A stretch of 64,000 nucleotides of DNA from Alphaproteobacteria bacterium. GTDB lineage: Bacteria > Pseudomonadota > Alphaproteobacteria > Micropepsales > Micropepsaceae. This document shows positions 10,429-41,847 of the stretch, piece by piece (positions within the stretch are counted from its first letter, which is position 1; each line of letters opens with the position of its first letter). The stretch covers positions 1 through 64,000 of the forward strand of contig CANHNJ010000005.1 in NCBI GenBank assembly GCA_947462105.1, given 5' to 3'. The translations under genes and the position numbers were made by a program. The notes under the pieces were generated by a model. The model was given only the letters and a program-made list of their open reading frames with translations. It had not been told where the DNA came from and made no database searches.

Positions 10429-11645
10429 ATCCCCACTCTTTTGCCATTGTTGCGCTCATTGGGGTAGCCGTCCTGGCCGGTTGCGCCCGCCCGGCCCCGC
10501 CACAGCCCCCCGCCGAAGTGGTGGCCGAGGCCCTGCCGCCGGTCCTGGAAGACCCGCCTGCGCCCAACCCGCTGGACAAGGACCAGCCCAGCTTCCTGCG
10601 GTTGCCCAACCTGGCCGAAGGCGCCACCCCCGTGCGGGTTGGTATCATCCTGCCCCTGACCTCGACCAACGCCGCCACCCGCAGCCTCGCCCAGGCGATG
10701 CTGAAGGCGGCGCAGCTTGCCATGTTCGACGCCCGCAATCCCAACCTGATGCTGATGGTCGAGGATGAAGGCAATGGCGGCGCGCCAGCCGCTGCCGCCG
10801 CCCGCCGCCTGCTGGCGCAGGGATCGGAAGTGATCGTGGGGCCGCTGTTCGGCGCCTCGGTCGCCGCCATTGCGCCGGTGACGCGCGATCGCGGCGTGCC
10901 GGTGCTGGCCTTCTCCACCGAGAAATCGGTGGCAGGCAAGGGCATCTACCTCATCAGCTTCCTGGCGCAGAACGAAGTGAACCGCGTCGTCGGCTTTGCC
11001 GCCCAGCGGGGATCAAAGCGCTTCGCCGCCCTGGTGCCGAACACCGCTTATGGCCAGCTGGTAGCCGAAGCCGTGCGCGACGCCGTCACCGCCGCCAAGG
11101 GCGAGACGGTGGCGGTCAGCCAGTTCACACCCACGCCCGGCGCCGCCATGACACCGGCGCGCGAGATCGGTGCGGCCAACCCCGATGCGGTGATGATCGC
11201 GCAGGGCGGCCCCGTGCTGCGGGCCATGGCGCCGGTCATTCCGGGCCGGGACAAGCTGAAGCTGCTGGGCACCGGCCTGTGGGATGATGAAACTCTGACC
11301 CGCGAAGCCTCGCTGGAAGGCGGCTGGTATGCCGCGCCAGAGCCCAATGCCGATGTCGATTTCGTCGCCAAGTATCGCGCCACCTATGGCGCAGCACCGC
11401 CGACGCTGGCGTCGCTGGCCTATGACGGCGTTGCGCTGGTGGCGCTGCTGGCGCAGGGCGAGCCCTACAAGCGCTTCATCAAGCCCAACCTGATGGACCC
11501 GAACGGGTTTGCGGGCGTCACTGGCATGTTCCGCTTCCGCGCCGACGGCACGTCTGAACGCGGTCTGGCCGTGATGGAAATGACGCGCGAAGGCCCCAAG
11601 GTGGTCAGCCCCGCGCCCAAGACCTTCCAGCGTCCCGGCTCGTAA
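10416..11645 (+). CDS. Lipoprotein, penicillin-binding protein activator (LpoA-like)
   Basis: Lipoprotein signal MRFSYPHSFA...VAVLAGC with lipidated Cys23, a Pro-rich linker to about residue 55, then a periplasmic-binding-protein-like fold (VRVGIILPLTSTNA, VGPLFGASVAAIAPV, VPVLAFSTE, GTGLWDDE). This is the arrangement of the LpoA-type PBP activator/leucine-binding family. In alphaproteobacteria it regularly sits divergent to rsmI-yraN-gshB, as here. The start is ATG at 10416, with AAGGA 7 nt upstream. Direct activation of a PBP is not established for alphaproteobacterial members. Confidence 0.75.
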   Translation: MRFSYPHSFAIVALIGVAVLAGCARPAPPQPPAEVVAEALPPVLEDPPAPNPLDKDQPSFLRLPNLAEGATPVRVGIILPLTSTNAATRSLAQAMLKAAQLAMFDARNPNLMLMVEDEGNGGAPAAAAARRLLAQGSEVIVGPLFGASVAAIAPVTRDRGVPVLAFSTEKSVAGKGIYLISFLAQNEVNRVVGFAAQRGSKRFAALVPNTAYGQLVAEAVRDAVTAAKGETVAVSQFTPTPGAAMTPAREIGAANPDAVMIAQGGPVLRAMAPVIPGRDKLKLLGTGLWDDETLTREASLEGGWYAAPEPNADVDFVAKYRATYGAAPPTLASLAYDGVALVALLAQGEPYKRFIKPNLMDPNGFAGVTGMFRFRADGTSERGLAVMEMTREGPKVVSPAPKTFQRPGS

Positions 11646-25019: not shown

Positions 25020-25597
25020 GTTTGAAGAACGCCTTGTTCTCGCAAAGCCGCCAGGACGGGAAACAGCGGCAGACCGAGGATGGAGAAGTAATCGCCTTCG
25101 ATCCTATCAAAGAGCTGCGCCCCACGCCCCTCCAGATGATAGCAGCCCACCGATGCGAGAATGGCGGGGCTTTCCGCCGCAAGGTAGGCATCAAGGAAAG
25201 CCGGGCTGAAAGCCCGCATGGTCAGGCGGCCTTCGCCCACATGCGTCCAGACGGTCTGCCCGTCCCGCGCCAGCGAAGCTGCCGAGACGATGCTGTGGGC
25301 CTTGCCCGCCAGCCGCGACAGCAGCGTTTTTGCCGCCGCCACATCCGGGCTCTTGCTCATCAGTTCACCCGCAAAATCCAGCACCGAGTCCCCGCCCAGC
25401 ACCAGCGCGCCGGGATGACGGCGTGAAACAAACTTCGCCTTTTCCTCGGCCAGCAGGCGGGCCACCATCGCTGCCGGTTCGCCAGGCTGCATCAGTGCCG
25501 CTTCGTCGATGTCGGCGGGGTCCTGCGTGAAGGCGATGCCGGCCTCGCGCAGCAGCCGTGCCCGGCTAGCACTGGCCGATGCCAAGATGAGTGTCAC
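25016..25597 (-). CDS. maf: Maf-family nucleoside triphosphate pyrophosphatase
   Basis: House-cleaning NTP pyrophosphatase, in the Maf/YceF/YhdE group, acting on modified or canonical pyrimidine nucleotides. It begins LILASASASRARLLREAGI, has the catalytic LVLGGDSVLDFAG and the C-terminal GCYHLEGRGAQLFDRIEGDYFSILGLPL. The start is GTG at 25597, overlapping the ppsR TGA as GTGA; 193 residues. Confidence 0.94.
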   Translation of the reverse strand: MTLILASASASRARLLREAGIAFTQDPADIDEAALMQPGEPAAMVARLLAEEKAKFVSRRHPGALVLGGDSVLDFAGELMSKSPDVAAAKTLLSRLAGKAHSIVSAASLARDGQTVWTHVGEGRLTMRAFSPAFLDAYLAAESPAILASVGCYHLEGRGAQLFDRIEGDYFSILGLPLFPVLAALREQGVLQT

Positions 25598-26424
25598 GAA
25601 CTCCGTTCCCGCTTTTCGGCCATCAGGTTCATCACGGCGGCCGCCGTTTCCTCGATGGAGCGGCGGGTGACGTCCAGGCTGGGCCAGCCCTGTGCCTCGA
25701 ACAATTGCCGCGTGGTGTTGACCTCGGCCCGGACCTGATCGAGATCGACATAGTCGGTGTCGCGGCCCTCGCCCATCGTGACCAGCCGGTTGCGCCGCAC
25801 CTGCACCAGCCGGTCGGGCGACACCCACAGCCCCACCACCAGCGCCGGCGTTTCCAGCAGGCCCGGCGGCGGCGGCATGCCTGGCACCAACGGCACGTTG
25901 GCGGCGCGGATACCGCGAATGGCGAGATAGACACAGGTGGGGGTCTTGGAGGTGCGGCTGGCACCCGTCAGCACTACTTCCGCACGGTTCAAGCCGTCCA
26001 CGGCCTGGCCATCGTCATGCGCGATGGCGAAATTCATCGTCTCGATGCGTTCGAGATAGCGCTGGTCGACCTGGTGCTGGCGGCCGACCTTGTGGCTTTC
26101 GGTCTTGCCAAAAAAGCGGCCCATCACCTGCAGCGGCGCTTCCAGCACGTCGATGCACTCCGCGCCAATGGTGGCGCAGCGGACCAGCAGTTTCTGGTTG
26201 AGCACGGGCTTGGCCAGAGTGAAGAAGACCAGCCCCGGCATGGTGGCGACCTGGTCCAGCGCCCGGGTCAGCTGGTGTTCGCTGCGCACCAGGGAATAGG
26301 CATGGATCTGGACCTCGACGCTCTCGAACTGGGCCAGGGCCGCGTTCGCCATGGCATTGAGTGTGTCGCCAGTGGAGTCCGAAATCAGGTGGAGATGGAA
26401 TTTTCGATCCACAATCGGTTCCAA
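25594..26424 (-). CDS. ppsR: Pyruvate-phosphate dikinase regulatory kinase/pyrophosphorylase (DUF299)
   Basis: Bifunctional ADP-dependent kinase and phosphate-dependent pyrophosphorylase controlling PPDK or PEP synthase. FHLHLISDSTGDT opens the protein; the P-loop-like VLTGASRTSKTPTCVYLA is diagnostic. The start is taken as TTG at 26424; a GTG four codons downstream (26412) is possible, and neither has a clear ribosome-binding site. It heads ppsR-maf-aroE-coaE-dnaQ. This is the gene called RP001/CC0001 beside the origins of Rickettsia and Caulobacter. Confidence 0.92.
   Translation of the reverse strand: MEPIVDRKFHLHLISDSTGDTLNAMANAALAQFESVEVQIHAYSLVRSEHQLTRALDQVATMPGLVFFTLAKPVLNQKLLVRCATIGAECIDVLEAPLQVMGRFFGKTESHKVGRQHQVDQRYLERIETMNFAIAHDDGQAVDGLNRAEVVLTGASRTSKTPTCVYLAIRGIRAANVPLVPGMPPPPGLLETPALVVGLWVSPDRLVQVRRNRLVTMGEGRDTDYVDLDQVRAEVNTTRQLFEAQGWPSLDVTRRSIEETAAAVMNLMAEKRERSS
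26405..26413 (+). promoter_or_regulatory. DnaA-box-like 9-mer at the ppsR 5' end
   Basis: CGATCCACA matches the DnaA consensus TTATCCACA at 7 of 9 and the Caulobacter G-box TGATCCACA at 8 of 9. It lies inside the first codons of ppsR at the edge of the candidate origin. It is a single motif, so support is weak. Confidence 0.3.
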
Positions 26425-26691
26425 TTCAAGGTCACAAACAGTCCCCAGCGGCCATAGCCCGGCAGGGAAAACCCCGCAAGGGCGGCGGCAAACCCGGCCT
26501 GCCTGTGCGAAGTGGTGAAGCTATGGGCGTGGAATTCCCCCACTGGTGGATGGCGGCTTAACCCAGGGCCAAAACCCAAGCGCTTGAGTCGGTTGGCTGT
26601 TCGGCTTAAGAGGCGCGCTGACCCACGCTTTGGTTCACAACCCACAGCCCTAACAACATCTTCACCATCCTTAGATTCTAGGAGTCTTGTT
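26425..26691. other. Candidate chromosomal replication origin (oriC) between ppsR and hemE
   Basis: This 267-bp gap lies between divergent ppsR and hemE, exactly the site of the Caulobacter Cori and the inferred Rickettsia origin. It contains weak DnaA-box-like 9-mers (TGGTTCACA and CAACCCACA, each 6 of 9, near 26631-26647), two GGCTTAA motifs with TTAA at 26558 and 26606 (possible CtrA half-sites), and three GANTC sites (26586, 26674, 26682) for CcrM-type methylation. No strong AT-rich unwinding element is obvious. The call rests mainly on synteny and on the nearby parAB/parS. Confidence 0.5.
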
Positions 26692-27720
26692 TTGAAGAAG
26701 GATGTGAAACTCCTGCGCGTCCTGGCCGGCGAGACCCAAGCCGTGCCGCCGGTCTGGCTGATGCGCCAGGCCGGGCGCTACCTGCCCGAATACCGCGCGC
26801 TGCGGGAGAGGGCGGGGTCCTTCTGGGATATGGCGCTGAATCCGGACTATGCCGCCGAAGTGACGCTGCAGCCGATCCGCCGGTTCGGTTTCGATGCGGC
26901 GATCCTGTTCTCCGATATCCTCACCGTGCCCGAAGCGCTGGGCCAGAAAGTCACCTTCACGGCGGGCGAAGGCCCCAGCCTGATGCCGGTGAGTAGCGCA
27001 AAGGGTTTCGACGAAAACACCGAAAACTGGCAGCGCTATTTTGAGCCGGTCTACGAGGCGTTGCGCCGGACGCGGCAGGGTCTCCCCCCGGGGACGGCCT
27101 TGTTGGGCTTCGCGGGTGCGCCCTGGACGCTGGCGACCTATCTGGCAGCGGGCGCGGGCGGCGATGAGCAGAAAGCGGCGAAGCTTTGGGCGTATCGCGA
27201 TCCGGAGGGCTTTGGATATCTTCTGGATATCCTGGGTGAGTGCGTCGCCTATCACCTGATCCGCCAGCTCGATGCCGGCGCCGATGCGGTGCAGATCTTC
27301 GACAGCTGGGCCAGCGGGCTTCCCGACGCGCTGTACGAGACCGTGGTGATCAAGCCGACCCGCGCCATCGTGCAGAAGGTGCGCACCGCGCGGCCCGATG
27401 CCCACATCATCGGTTTCCCCCGTGCGTCTACCCTGGCGGGCTATGAGCAATATGCAAAGGTGACCGGCGTTGATGCCATGTCGCTAGATACGGCAGCCCC
27501 GATGGGCTGGGCCGCGAAAAGCATTGGCCCGCTCTGCGCGGTCCAGGGCAATCTCGATCCCATCGCCCTGATCGCGGGCGGTGCGGCGCTGGACGGCGCG
27601 GTGGACCGGATTCTCGAAGCGATGGACGGCACGCCGTTCATCTTCAATCTGGGTCACGGTATCCTGCCGGAGACACCGATCGCCCATGTCGAGCAATTGC
27701 TGAAGCGCATCAGAAAATGA
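26692..27720 (+). CDS. hemE: Uroporphyrinogen III decarboxylase
   Basis: Haem synthesis: uroporphyrinogen III to coproporphyrinogen III. It shows PPVWLMRQAGRYLPEYRALR, FSDILTVPEALG, GFAGAPWTLATYL and FNLGHGILPETP. The start is TTG at 26692, supported by AGGAG 7 nt upstream; the open frame further upstream lies in the candidate origin and is not protein-like. It gives 342 residues. hemH overlaps the stop by 4 nt. Confidence 0.96.
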   Translation: MKKDVKLLRVLAGETQAVPPVWLMRQAGRYLPEYRALRERAGSFWDMALNPDYAAEVTLQPIRRFGFDAAILFSDILTVPEALGQKVTFTAGEGPSLMPVSSAKGFDENTENWQRYFEPVYEALRRTRQGLPPGTALLGFAGAPWTLATYLAAGAGGDEQKAAKLWAYRDPEGFGYLLDILGECVAYHLIRQLDAGADAVQIFDSWASGLPDALYETVVIKPTRAIVQKVRTARPDAHIIGFPRASTLAGYEQYAKVTGVDAMSLDTAAPMGWAAKSIGPLCAVQGNLDPIALIAGGAALDGAVDRILEAMDGTPFIFNLGHGILPETPIAHVEQLLKRIRK

Positions 27721-37700: not shown

Positions 37701-39581
37701 ATGGGAAGCGACTTCGACGTCATTGTGATCGGCGGCGGCCATGCCGGCTGCGAGGCTGCGGCGGCTTCTGCCCGTCTTGGCGCCCGCACCCTGCTCCTGA
37801 CCCACATGTTCGAGACCCTGGGCGAGATGTCCTGCAACCCCGCCATCGGCGGCGTCGGCAAGGGCCACCTGGTGCGCGAGATCGATGCACTCGATGGCCT
37901 GATGGGCAAGGCCGCCGACGCGGCGGGCATCCAGTTCAAGCTGCTCAACCGGCGCAAGGGTCCGGCAGTACGCGGTCCGCGCGCCCAGGCCGATCGCGCG
38001 CTCTATCGCGCCGCGATGCAGGCCGCGCTGGGGCAGATTGAAAATCTCACCATCAAGGTCGTGAGCGTAGAAGACCTGATTTTAAAGGCTCAAACCGTTG
38101 TCGGTGTTCGCACTGCGCGCGGCGAGGAGATCAGCGCGGGTGCCGTGGTGCTGACCACCGGCACCTTCCTCAATGGTCTCATCCATCTGGGCGAGACCAA
38201 AATTCCCGCTGGCCGCATGAAAGTCGAAGACGGCGTGGAGGCGCCCTCCATCGGCCTGTCGCAGACACTCTATGGCCTCGGCCTCAATATGGGCCGGCTC
38301 AAGACCGGCACGCCGCCGCGCCTCGATGGCCGCACCATCGACTGGGCCGCACTGGAGCCGCAGGCAGGCGACACGCCGCCAGTGCCCTTCTCCTTCCTGA
38401 CCAAGGCGATCACCACGCCGCAGATCGCCTGCGCCATCACCCGCACGACATTGGCCACCCATGACGTCATCCGGGCCAACTTGCACCGCTCGCCCATGTA
38501 TTCGGGGCAGATCAAGTCTAGCGGCCCGCGCTATTGCCCCTCCATCGAGGACAAGGTCAGCCGCTTTGCCGACAAGGAATCACACCAGATTTTCCTTGAG
38601 CCGGAAGGACTTAACGACGATACGGTCTATCCCAACGGCATCTCCACCTCCCTGCCCCAGGACGTCCAGCATGCATTGCTGGCCACCATTCCGGGGCTGG
38701 AGAAGGCCGTGGTCCGCCGCCCCGGCTATGCCATCGAGTATGACTATGTCGATCCGCGCGAGCTTTCGCCGGCGCTGCAGGTCAAGCGCCTGCCCGGCCT
38801 ATATCTGGCGGGCCAGATCAATGGCACCACCGGTTACGAGGAAGCCGCCGCACAAGGCCTGATGGCGGGCTGGAATGCCGCCCGGGCCGTGGCTGGCAAT
38901 GATCCCGTCATCCTGGACCGCGCCACCGCCTATATCGGCGTGCTGATCGACGATCTGGTCACCAAGGGTGTTTCGGAGCCCTACCGCATGTTCACCAGCC
39001 GGGCCGAGTATCGCCTGACGCTGCGGGCCGACAATGCCGACCAGCGCCTGACCGTGCTGGGCGATGCAGGCGGCATCGTTGGGACCGAACGCCGGGCCGC
39101 CTTTGCGGCGAAGCTGGCGCACCTGAATGTTTCACGTGAAACAATGACCCGGCTGAACCTGACCCCACCCCAGGCGGCGGCCCACGGCATTGCCGTGCGG
39201 CAGGACGGGGTTCGCCGCAGTGCCCTGGACCTGCTTTCCCTCACCGATCTGGCGGTCCTGGCCCGGATATGGCCCGAAATCGGGGAAATTTCGCCTGATA
39301 TTGCCGAGCAGCTGGAGATTGACGCCCAGTATGCCGGGTATCTGGACCGGCAGGAGGCCGATATCGTCGCCTTCCGCCGGGACGAAGCCCGCGCCCTGCC
39401 CGCCGCCCTGGACTATGCCACCGTGATCGGCCTTTCCAACGAGGTCCGCAGCAAGCTGGAAACCATCCGGCCTGTCACCTTGGGCCAGGCCGCCCGTATC
39501 GAGGGCGTCACGGCGGCGGCGCTGACCCTGGTTCTGGCCCATGTGAAGGGCCTGAAGGGCAAACATGCTGCTCGGGCCTGA
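37701..39581 (+). CDS. mnmG: tRNA uridine modification enzyme MnmG (GidA)
   Basis: FAD-dependent partner of Mnm[21 protein letters not shown] binds FAD, then [25 protein letters not shown] and [11 protein letters not shown] 37701 (MGSDFDVIV) gives 626 residues, close to E. coli 629; ATG 37689 and TTG 37665 are alternatives. A perfect parS palindrome inside the gene encodes NVSRET near residue 477. TTGTCCACA just upstream (37665-37673) differs by one base from a DnaA box. It overlaps rsmG by 17 nt. Confidence 0.95.
39128..39143. promoter_or_regulatory. parS centromere site inside mnmG
   Basis: TGTTTCACGTGAAACA is a perfect match to the universal 16-bp ParB nucleation site. It lies within the mnmG coding sequence, about 1.9 kb before parB and 12.4 kb from the candidate oriC. 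Confidence 0.95.
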
Positions 39582-40242
39582 AGATTTCGCGCGTCAGACC
39601 AATGTTTCACGTGAAACATTGGCCCGGCTCAAGGCTTATGCCGATCTGCTGGTCGCCTGGAACGAGCACCACAATCTGGTGGCCCGCAGCACCCTGCCCG
39701 ATCTCTGGCACCGCCATTTCCTGGATTCCGCCCAACTGGAGCCCCTGATCCCACCGGGAACCCGGAACCTCGCTGATCTGGGTTCCGGTGCCGGGTTCCC
39801 CGGCCTGGTATTGGCAGCGATGCGGCCAGAGATCGCCGTCACGCTTCATGAATCCACCGGAAAGAAGTGCGCCTTCCTTACCGCTGCCGCCGAGGGCATG
39901 GGCCTCAAGCTCGCGGTCCAGAATACCCGCATCGAGGCCCTGCCGCCCAAGGCCTTCGATGTGGTGACGGCCCGGGCGCTGGCCCCCCTGCCCCTGCTCC
40001 TGTCCTACGCCAAGCCGCTCACCGGCCCGAACAGTGTTTGTTTGTTTCTGAAGGGACAAAATGCGGGGTCTGAATTGACGGAAGCCCATAAATCTTGGAA
40101 TATGGAAACCTCACAAGTTCCCAGCAAAACCGACCCCTCGGGTGCTATTCTGGTGGTGAGAAAGCTGGTTTCCCTCCATGAACACCCCTCCCCCAAAGCC
40201 CCGCATCCTGGTCGTCGCCAATCAAAAGGGCGGCGTCGGTAA
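39565..40242 (+). CDS. rsmG: 16S rRNA (guanine527-N7)-methyltransferase RsmG (GidB)
   Basis: SAM-dependent methyltransferase. It has [22 protein letters not shown], the SAM site [16 protein letters not shown], and [20 protein letters not shown] second parS in codons 13-18 encodes NVSRET. The protein runs 65 nt into parA before its stop; the last 22 residues (Pro/Arg-rich) are probably non-conserved. Length 225. Confidence 0.94.
39603..39618. promoter_or_regulatory. parS centromere site inside rsmG
   Basis: A second perfect TGTTTCACGTGAAACA, extended to a 20-bp palindrome by flanking AA/TT (39601-39620). It is 475 bp from the first site, in the same codon phase. Confidence 0.95.
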
Positions 40243-40987
40243 GACCACGACCGCGATCAACTTGGGGACTGCCTTGGCCGCCATCGGTGAGGCGACCCTG
40301 GTGATCGACATCGATCCGCAGGGCAACGCCTCCACCGGGCTGGGCCTGCATCGCCAGGATCGCGGCCTGACTACCTATGAAGTGCTGACCGGCGAAGCCA
40401 AGCTGGCCGAGGCCATCGTCCCCACTCGTATCCCCGGCCTGTCGCTGTTGCCCGCGACGGTGGACCTGTCGGGCGCCGAGCTGGAGCTGGCCGACATGCC
40501 CCGGCGCAACTTCATCCTGAAGGACGCGCTGGATGAATATTCCGCCTACGGACGAAATGCCTTCTCCTATATCCTGATTGACTGCCCGCCTTCCCTCACC
40601 CTGCTGACGCTGAACGCGATGGCGGCGGCGGACGCGGTGCTGGTGCCGCTGCAATGCGAGTTCTTCGCGCTGGAAGGTTTGAGCCAGCTGATGAAGACCA
40701 TCGAGCTGGTGCGCGACAAGCTCAACCCGACGCTCGAGATGCAGGGCGTCGTCCTGACCATGTTCGACAAGCGCAACAAGCTGTCCGACCAGGTCGCTGA
40801 CGATGTCCGCGCCACGCTGGGCGAAAAGGTCTATGCCACCGTCATCCCGAGAAATGTGCGTATTTCCGAAGCGCCGTCGCATGGCGTGCCGGCGCTGGTG
40901 TATGACCTGAAATGCTCCGGCAGCCAGGCCTACATCAAGCTGGCGGGCGAACTGATCCAGCGCGAACGGCACAGAGCAGCGGCATGA
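40178..40987 (+). CDS. parA: Chromosome partitioning ATPase ParA
   Basis: Deviant Walker-A ATPase driving origin segregation with Par[23 protein letters not shown] holds the signature Lys, VIDIDPQGNASTGLG the Walker A', and YILIDCPPSLTLLTLNAM the Walker B. Length 269, a chromosomal-type ParA without an N-terminal HTH. It overlaps rsmG and shares its TGA with the parB ATG. Confidence 0.97.
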   Translation: MNTPPPKPRILVVANQKGGVGKTTTAINLGTALAAIGEATLVIDIDPQGNASTGLGLHRQDRGLTTYEVLTGEAKLAEAIVPTRIPGLSLLPATVDLSGAELELADMPRRNFILKDALDEYSAYGRNAFSYILIDCPPSLTLLTLNAMAAADAVLVPLQCEFFALEGLSQLMKTIELVRDKLNPTLEMQGVVLTMFDKRNKLSDQVADDVRATLGEKVYATVIPRNVRISEAPSHGVPALVYDLKCSGSQAYIKLAGELIQRERHRAAA

Positions 40988-41847
40988 CACCTCCCACAGA
41001 TCGTCCGCGCGGACTGGGTCGCGGCCTCTCCGCCCTGATCGGCGATGAAGTCGCCGCCGTGAAGGGTGAGCCCCCGCCTTCGAAAAAAGATGCGCGCACC
41101 TTGCCCGTCGCCTTCCTGCGCCCCGGCAAGTACCAGCCGCGCAAGACCTTCGACGAACAGCCATTGGCCGAGCTCGCCGCCAGCGTGAAGGAAAAGGGCG
41201 TGCTGTCGCCCATCCTGGTGCGGCCCATCGGCCCCGACGCCTATGAGATCGTCGCCGGCGAACGCCGCTGGCGCGCGGCCCAGATCGCCAAGCTGCACGA
41301 TGTGCCGGTGGTCATCCGCGAGATGCCGGACGGCGAGGCGCTGGAAATCGCCATCATCGAGAACGTCCAGCGCGCCGACCTGAATGCGCTGGAAGAGGCG
41401 ATGGCCTACGACCAGCTGATGACCGCGCCCTTCAACCGGACGCAGGAGCAGGTGGCTGGGCAGGTCGGCAAGTCCCGCTCCCATGTCGCCAACACGGTGC
41501 GGCTGCTGAACCTGCCGGAGCCGGTTAAGGCCTGGCTGCGCGAGGGCAAGCTGACGGCGGGCCATGCCCGAACACTGTTGGGATTGCCCGATCCGGAGGC
41601 CGCCGCCCGCGCCCTGATCGAAGGCGGGCTGAATGTACGGCAGGCCGAACAGCGTTCGGTCAAAAAGCCGAAGCCCGGTGGAAAAGCCTATAAAGACCCC
41701 AATGTCACTGACGTGGAATCCAGCATTTCCAGCCGCTTGGGACTGAAAGTTGAGATCATGCACAATGGGGATAAAGGCGGGGAAATCCGTATCCGGTACA
41801 AGACCCTGGAGCAGCTTGAGGATGTCGAGCGCCGCCTGAAGCGCTAA
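40984..41847 (+). CDS. parB: Chromosome partitioning protein ParB
   Basis: CTP-dependent DNA clamp loading at parS. It starts [15 protein letters not shown] (ParA-contacting N-terminus), then [17 protein letters not shown], the CTPase motif GERRWRAAQ and [14 protein letters not shown], and the [29 protein letters not shown] 40984 overlaps parA; 287 residues. Ends convergent with hisA (4-nt overlap). Confidence 0.97.

Follow-up and report, generated by a model that had tools for sequence, protein, structure and literature searches.

A compact, box-poor candidate replication origin and a divergent DnaA in a clade of Alphaproteobacteria

DnaA boxes are the normal means of finding origins and are the supposed nucleation sites of the orisome. 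Can a spacer be the chromosomal origin if it holds no recognisable box? This question is raised by the 267 bp (26425-26691) between the divergent genes ppsR and hemE in a window of 64,000 bp, that is, the whole stretch of DNA that was analysed. The window is part of a 115-kb contig (C5) in an assembly of 2.17 Mb (G000; 41 contigs, 98% complete). According to PMC1914354, the hemE/COG1806 pair flanks the mapped origin of Caulobacter as well as the origin of Rickettsia, and a preliminary description of the DNA had proposed a candidate oriC on the basis of this synteny. The proposal is supported by the flanking genes, parS sites, conservation, GANTC enrichment, an AT-rich element and the persistence of a conserved block after loss of hemE. 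The stretch from about 26405 to 26691 is very probably the chromosomal origin, in a compact form of the Caulobacter-type oriC. As the comparison with related genomes supports well, this would be the ordinary place of an alphaproteobacterial origin in an unusual form: compact, poor in boxes and combined with a divergent DnaA.

The spacer and its surroundings

The left flank, ppsR (25594-26424, minus strand), is the homologue of COG1806 (RP001/CC0001). It scores 305.6 bits with NF003742 (PPDK/PEP synthase regulator; cut-off 225), and only 166.6 bits with the narrower PpsR model NF049928 (cut-off 350). The right flank, hemE (26692-27720, plus strand), scores 362.7 bits with TIGR01464 (cut-off 302.95). 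With NF003742 and TIGR01464 both above their cut-offs, the divergent synteny described earlier stands, and the spacer is a COG1806-hemE intergenic region as in a Caulobacter-type oriC. The genes are ordered dnaQ-coaE-aroE-maf-ppsR / hemE-hemH-hemJ-rho, and then mnmE-mnmG-rsmG-parA-parB-hisA. This order, from dnaQ to ppsR, from hemE to rho and from mnmE to parB, is common to the relatives, in which ppsR is divergent from hemE or hemH, and it resembles the order in Caulobacter. The genome furthermore encodes CcrM (match to 6pbd, E 6e-169), GcrA and CtrA (NF045991, 419 bits, cut-off 350). The hemE of the window is 59% identical to that of Rhizomicrobium electricum, which NCBI taxonomy places in the Micropepsales, and at most 80% identical to those of metagenome-assembled genomes; the bacterium is accordingly regarded as Rhizomicrobium/Micropepsales-like. 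The relatives G001-G036 are called a clade here and not a genus, since hemE identity among them goes down to 49%.

In Caulobacter, parS and parAB are located near the origin. The same is found here, with two perfect parS sites (TGTTTCACGTGAAACA), one inside mnmG (39128-39143) and one inside rsmG (39603-39618), which the preliminary description had missed. They are the only perfect ones in the genome, both 12-13 kb from the spacer; the next best site has three mismatches and is on contig C4. Close by are parA (40178-40987, plus strand), assigned by an AAA_31 match of 199.7 bits and by position, with no NCBIfam model above cut-off among the matches listed, and parB (40912-41847, plus strand), with TIGR00180 above cut-off and the domains ParB_N and HTH_ParB.

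Inside 26425-26691 there is no 9-mer within two mismatches of TTATCCACA, and hence the absence of a strong box cluster, as described earlier, is upheld. Likewise, no recognisable box is present in this stretch, whether a G-box TGATCCACA or a 9-mer with at most one mismatch to TTATCCACA. The nearest DnaA-like 9-mer, CGATCCACA (26405-26413, plus strand), overlaps the start of ppsR. It has one mismatch to the Caulobacter G-box and two to TTATCCACA (G-box and W-box sequences as given in PMC4285127). As the site overlaps the probable GTG start of ppsR, its conservation may reflect the start codon. A single W-box-like TCCCCA (26442-26447, plus strand) may be due to chance. On the other side of the spacer, two weak DnaA cores, TTCACA and CCCACAG, are paired at a distance of 7 bp (26634-26647, plus strand; clade consensus TCCACAAnTCACAG), each with three mismatches to the DnaA box, and the least stable stretch of the spacer adjoins them.

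This stretch contradicts the earlier statement that an AT-rich element is lacking. In the whole 64-kb window, only one 60-bp peak is less stable than that at 26650-26709, which reaches into the first 18 bases of hemE and agrees with the AT-rich element of a Caulobacter-type oriC; with shorter intervals, a peak here comes fifth (40 bp) or sixth (30 bp). Within the spacer, stability is lowest over the 40 bp at 26650-26689, and 0.9987 of the stretches in the window are more stable. The probable unwinding element (26650-26691, CTAACAACATCTTCACCATCCTTAGATTCTAGGAGTCTTG...) holds the GANTC sites at 26674 and 26682 and overlaps the ribosome-binding site of hemE. Together with the site at 26586, the spacer thus has the three GANTC sites that had been reported; at least three occur in only 13 of 3187 overlapping 267-bp intervals, the spacer itself counted in. 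Over the window as a whole (1-64000), GANTC is depleted 3.8-fold (62 seen, 233 expected), as is expected where methylation by CcrM marks few functional sites. The two TTAA motifs described earlier are indeed inside the spacer (26558 and 26606), while the CtrA site TTAA-N7-TTAA is absent from it. A probable hemE promoter, TTGAGT followed by TTAAGA/TAAGAG, is located at 26584-26612 (plus strand), with the GANTC at 26586-26590 overlapping its -35 element.

Conservation of the spacer and displacement of hemE

The clade alignment comprises 38 spacers including that of the window, 31 with hemE and 7 without; six duplicates, L040 and loci without ppsR (for example L006 and L033) were left out. In a block at 26633-26688, with bounds picked after the alignment was seen, 38 of the 56 columns are at least 80% conserved, versus 1 of 156 at 26425-26580. 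The block is made up of TCCACAAnTCACAG, a short G+C stretch, ACATCATCTTCAnnATC and then the GANTC-bearing stretch that is also the ribosome-binding site of hemE. The core pair is found in all 38 spacers, with a core-to-core distance of 7 bp in 35 of them, 8 bp in two and 6 bp in one. A second conserved patch has TTGAGTC and then a -10-like sequence and probably represents the hemE promoter; its columns 26583-26587 are at least 80% conserved, those of the -10 part are not. At the left edge, the CACA columns 26410-26413 are conserved, and 10 of the 38 spacers have a one-mismatch box at precisely the edge of ppsR, five of these boxes being an exact TGATCCACA.

Compared with 64 other alphaproteobacterial ppsR-hemE spacers (duplicates kept), those of the clade are short and poor in boxes. 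The median length is 247 bp with hemE and 272 bp without, versus 406 bp in the others. When 40 bp of ppsR are counted, the mean number of one-mismatch boxes per spacer is 0.39 with hemE, 0.71 without and 2.52 in the others, and such boxes are lacking altogether in 19/31, 3/7 and 9/64 spacers, respectively. Without most of the ppsR overlap, the means are 0.16, 0.14 and 2.48, and 26 of the 31 hemE-bearing and six of the seven hemE-less clade spacers have none. TTAA-N7-TTAA is found in 0/38 clade spacers versus 10/64 others. GANTC density in the clade spacers is 10.4 per kb, a 6-fold enrichment over the 1.66 per kb in their flanks, and it is 10.3 per kb in the 64 other spacers. By eye, two Rhodospirillales spacers retain TTATCCACA and then G+C at the place of the clade's nTCACAG, a difference that a small deletion in an ancestral box could explain. 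The comparison supports the view that the paucity of boxes is a feature of the whole clade and that the position of the origin has not drifted. The earlier suggestion that the origin might have drifted or be cryptic is right for the DnaA boxes and does not apply to the position.

The block immediately precedes hemE and contains the ribosome-binding site of that gene, and promoter-like elements are conserved. It could therefore be read as nothing but the promoter or leader of the hemE operon, acting in RNA or translation control, with the origin function lying elsewhere or being incidental. We regard this as improbable. Several members of the clade no longer have hemE at the locus, and this helps to separate conservation of the origin from that of hemE. 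In seven genomes (G008, G010, G013, G021, G024, G027 and G028), ppsR is followed by hemH, and the conserved block is kept in all seven spacers. This speaks for a function of the block beyond hemE, with the hemH promoter as a remaining confounder, since the promoter may still serve hemH after the loss. In two of these spacers (L181 and L182) the AGGAG is no longer intact, but there are three GANTC sites in the module, versus one or two in hemE-bearing spacers. By eye, the module is also similar to combinations of a box and an AT-rich stretch in the corresponding position of other Alphaproteobacteria. A leader RNA is not favoured by Rfam either: the search gave nothing of note, its sole match (E 0.35) being far below the gathering score and on the opposite strand. 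A role as promoter alone is also made less probable by the parS sites near the spacer. In all four hemE-less genomes that have a listed parS on the contig of ppsR (G013, G021, G027 and G028), parS is 11-17 kb from ppsR.

The absence of hemE from the origin locus appears to be a displacement of the haem gene. By eye, parts of the old hemE start have apparently been left at the hemE-less loci (L175-L179, L181 and L182, from G024, G008, G013, G010, G021, G028 and G027), and the best hemE in these genomes is located elsewhere and is 49-51% identical to that of the window. A listed parS and hemE share a contig in eleven clade genomes. The two are 9.7-17.3 kb apart in ten of these (G000, G002, G009, G011, G019, G025, G030, G031, G034 and G035); these distances are among the sites listed, many assemblies split the region over contigs, and 17 of 61 genomes have no perfect site. 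The eleventh is the complete genome G027, with hemE at 2.07 Mb, ppsR-hemH at 3.516 Mb and parS at 3.528 Mb. Its displaced hemE is thus 1.46 Mb from parS, and hemE alone is no origin marker there.

Other positions in the genome and GC skew

The whole-genome scan for DnaA boxes that the preliminary description had proposed gives 109 one-mismatch boxes, versus 155 for a backward-read control; among 100 of the 109 places that were listed, there are nowhere three such boxes within 1 kb. The one-mismatch box TTGTCCACA at the start of mnmG (37665), to which the earlier reader had pointed instead, is present, but with the genome count below that of the control it is background and does not qualify as an alternative origin. 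One box, TNATCCACA, is above its control (35 versus 12), its closest pair being 868 bp apart. The tightest one-mismatch pair among the places listed is a tandem of TTATCCACG at 11226 and 11237, 11 bp apart (L168, G000:C28:11226-11245), possibly a DnaA-regulated site. On contig C6 (L169, 72679-72744), four GANTC in 370 bp occur together with two one-mismatch boxes, possibly as a cell-cycle promoter. Four two-mismatch sites in about 410 bp are found at the 5' end of a gyrB-like frame (L161:3857-4263, G000:C14); such a run of four is absent from the 84 kb around the spacer. An origin linked to dnaA was also considered and rejected, as gyrB holds the sole run of sites within the 20 kb surrounding dnaA.

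That one of these places (the tandem pair on C28, the stretch at 72.7 kb on C6, the gyrB run about 5 kb from dnaA) is the true origin and the spacer, with its weak boxes, a relic is highly improbable, as a relic would not have been conserved throughout the clade, perfect parS sites occur only in the window, the gyrB run is coding, has 64% G+C and lacks GANTC, and the mnmG box is background.

The usual sign of GC skew is an excess of G on the leading strand. No canonical skew switch was seen in G002, G027, G028, G030 or the window, whether with raw skew or at third codon positions. In the complete genome G027 (43 stretches of G027:C1), the skew averages +0.0142 +/- 0.0043 in the left arm and -0.0032 +/- 0.0066 in the right, which is opposite to the usual sign. 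G030 (L146-L159, G030:C5) is similar to G027, with a skew around the proposed origin that in both is weak and leans to the inverted sign; G028 is positive on both sides, and G002 has the usual sign, within error. A skew minimum that at first seemed to be present at 28-42 kb of the window was not upheld by the fuller analysis. GC skew cannot decide the position of the origin in this clade, and the skew test that had been suggested for the locus cannot serve. In the same sense, GC skew is reported to be insufficient for origin prediction in several Alphaproteobacteria (PMC1914354).

A divergent initiator and comparison with known systems

The DnaA of the clade (L161:9277-10713, minus strand, G000:C14, and relatives L238-L266) is itself unusual. 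Pfam Bac_DnaA scores 120.8-148.5 bits in 34 of the 37 clade genomes (one partial match), the exceptions being G016 (fragment only), G025 and G036 (no match); in other Alphaproteobacteria it scores 181-242 bits in 22 of 24, two being without a match. The lower scores with this general profile favour acceleration over horizontal replacement of the clade DnaA. In an alignment of 24 clade genomes (hemE-less ones left out) and nine other Alphaproteobacteria, identity of the AAA+ domain is 76.9% within the clade, 68.9% among the others and 38.6% across; for domain IV these values are 83.9%, 67.5% and 55.3%. The controls diverge far less: hemE is 48.5% identical both across and among the others, and ppsR 49.3% across and 54.7% among the others (five of the nine only). 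In the trees, the branch between the clade and the others has 4.24 changes per column for DnaA (0.83 + 3.41) and 0.81 for ppsR (0.22 + 0.59); in the hemE tree, the clade is not recovered as a single group.

The changes include conserved positions, for which residue numbers were placed by eye on the E. coli DnaA sequence. The box VII arginine, Arg281, is Asp in 24/24 clade proteins and Arg in 9/9 others. Lys243 is Ser in 23/24 and Gly in 1/24, and Lys in 9/9 others. The positions of Arg285 and Leu290 are kept in 24/24, and that of Arg227 in five clade sequences inspected. The signature helices of domain IV (RPRQVAM..L...GGRDHTTVLHACRR) are present in 24/24, so that the clade protein has the DNA-binding helices of a canonical DnaA and lacks its box VII Arg and Lys243. 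In E. coli, Arg281 is described as stabilising DnaA oligomers on oriC and as needed for helicase loading and not for unwinding, and Lys243 as contributing to oligomerisation (PMC5742627 and PMC6127211). Another long DnaA branch, with 3.17 changes per column, is found separately among the other Alphaproteobacteria, in G047 (L275, L171; G047:C1). Its ppsR-hemE spacer of 306 bp has two one-mismatch boxes, so that divergence of DnaA alone does not imply loss of boxes.

On this basis, a sequence of events can be proposed for the compact origin. DnaA, with its normal DNA-binding helices, would bind the paired weak cores (26634-26647) and perhaps also the G-box-like site at the ppsR edge; it would then spread over the AT-rich element (26650-26691) and open it. 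Firing would be linked to the cell cycle by CcrM methylation of the three GANTC sites and by the location of the hemE promoter within the origin, and the two parS sites 12-13 kb away would then start segregation via ParAB. In the course of evolution, most near-consensus 9-mer boxes would have disappeared from the clade spacers, which would have become about 150 bp shorter than those of other Alphaproteobacteria, and the AAA+ domain would have changed on the clade stem. Origin and initiator may have diverged together, possibly with a causal link between the loss of boxes and the change in DnaA. As a tentative proposal, which may well turn out to be wrong, the clade has rebuilt the two jointly: a DnaA with an altered subunit interface (Asp for the box VII Arg, Ser for Lys243) would open a compact origin with, in most members, no near-consensus box or just one at the edge of ppsR, nucleation being brought about by weak paired cores, protein cooperativity, methylation or a helper and not by an array of strong sites. 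If true, this would offer a natural means of testing which components of initiator and origin are really needed, and it would explain the poor performance to be expected in this clade of origin finders based on DnaA boxes or GC skew. A search of open-licence full text, in itself weak evidence of absence, showed, among the papers listed, no published report of the clade origin or of a divergent alphaproteobacterial DnaA.

The compact origin has a certain likeness to the DnaA-box/DnaA-trio arrangement (BUS), in that a box, a short G+C spacer and then a three-base pattern follow each other in many relatives. The BUS rule is a box with at most two mismatches, a spacer of 0-16 bp and at least three NAN trios (PMC8287927); in the window, the cores have three mismatches and the trio run is two. 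Over the clade, a run of at least three occurs in 25 of the 38 spacers, and the mean run is 3.55 versus 2.59 after shuffling, with 0 of 500 shuffles as high; the rows are, however, related to each other, and a run of three is reached in 46% of single shuffles. A trio pattern in the clade is thus suggestive. The oriC of Rickettsia (RP001-hemE, 383-396 bp) shares the flanking pair, and CtrA and DnaA sites are reported for it, but its AT content is about 82% (PMC1914354), versus about 42% in the spacer described here. In the 64 other alphaproteobacterial spacers, by eye, the same module of a box and then an AT-rich stretch is located next to hemE, in a longer and box-richer context. The Cori of Caulobacter crescentus (hemE/CC0001) has 404 bp versus 267 bp here. 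The present spacer lacks TTAA-N7-TTAA and has no G-box inside, a site with one mismatch to it being present at the edge of ppsR, and the AAA+ domain of the clade DnaA is strongly divergent from that of other Alphaproteobacteria. What both have in common are the flanking genes, the AT-rich stretch and a genome that encodes DnaA, CtrA, CcrM and GcrA.
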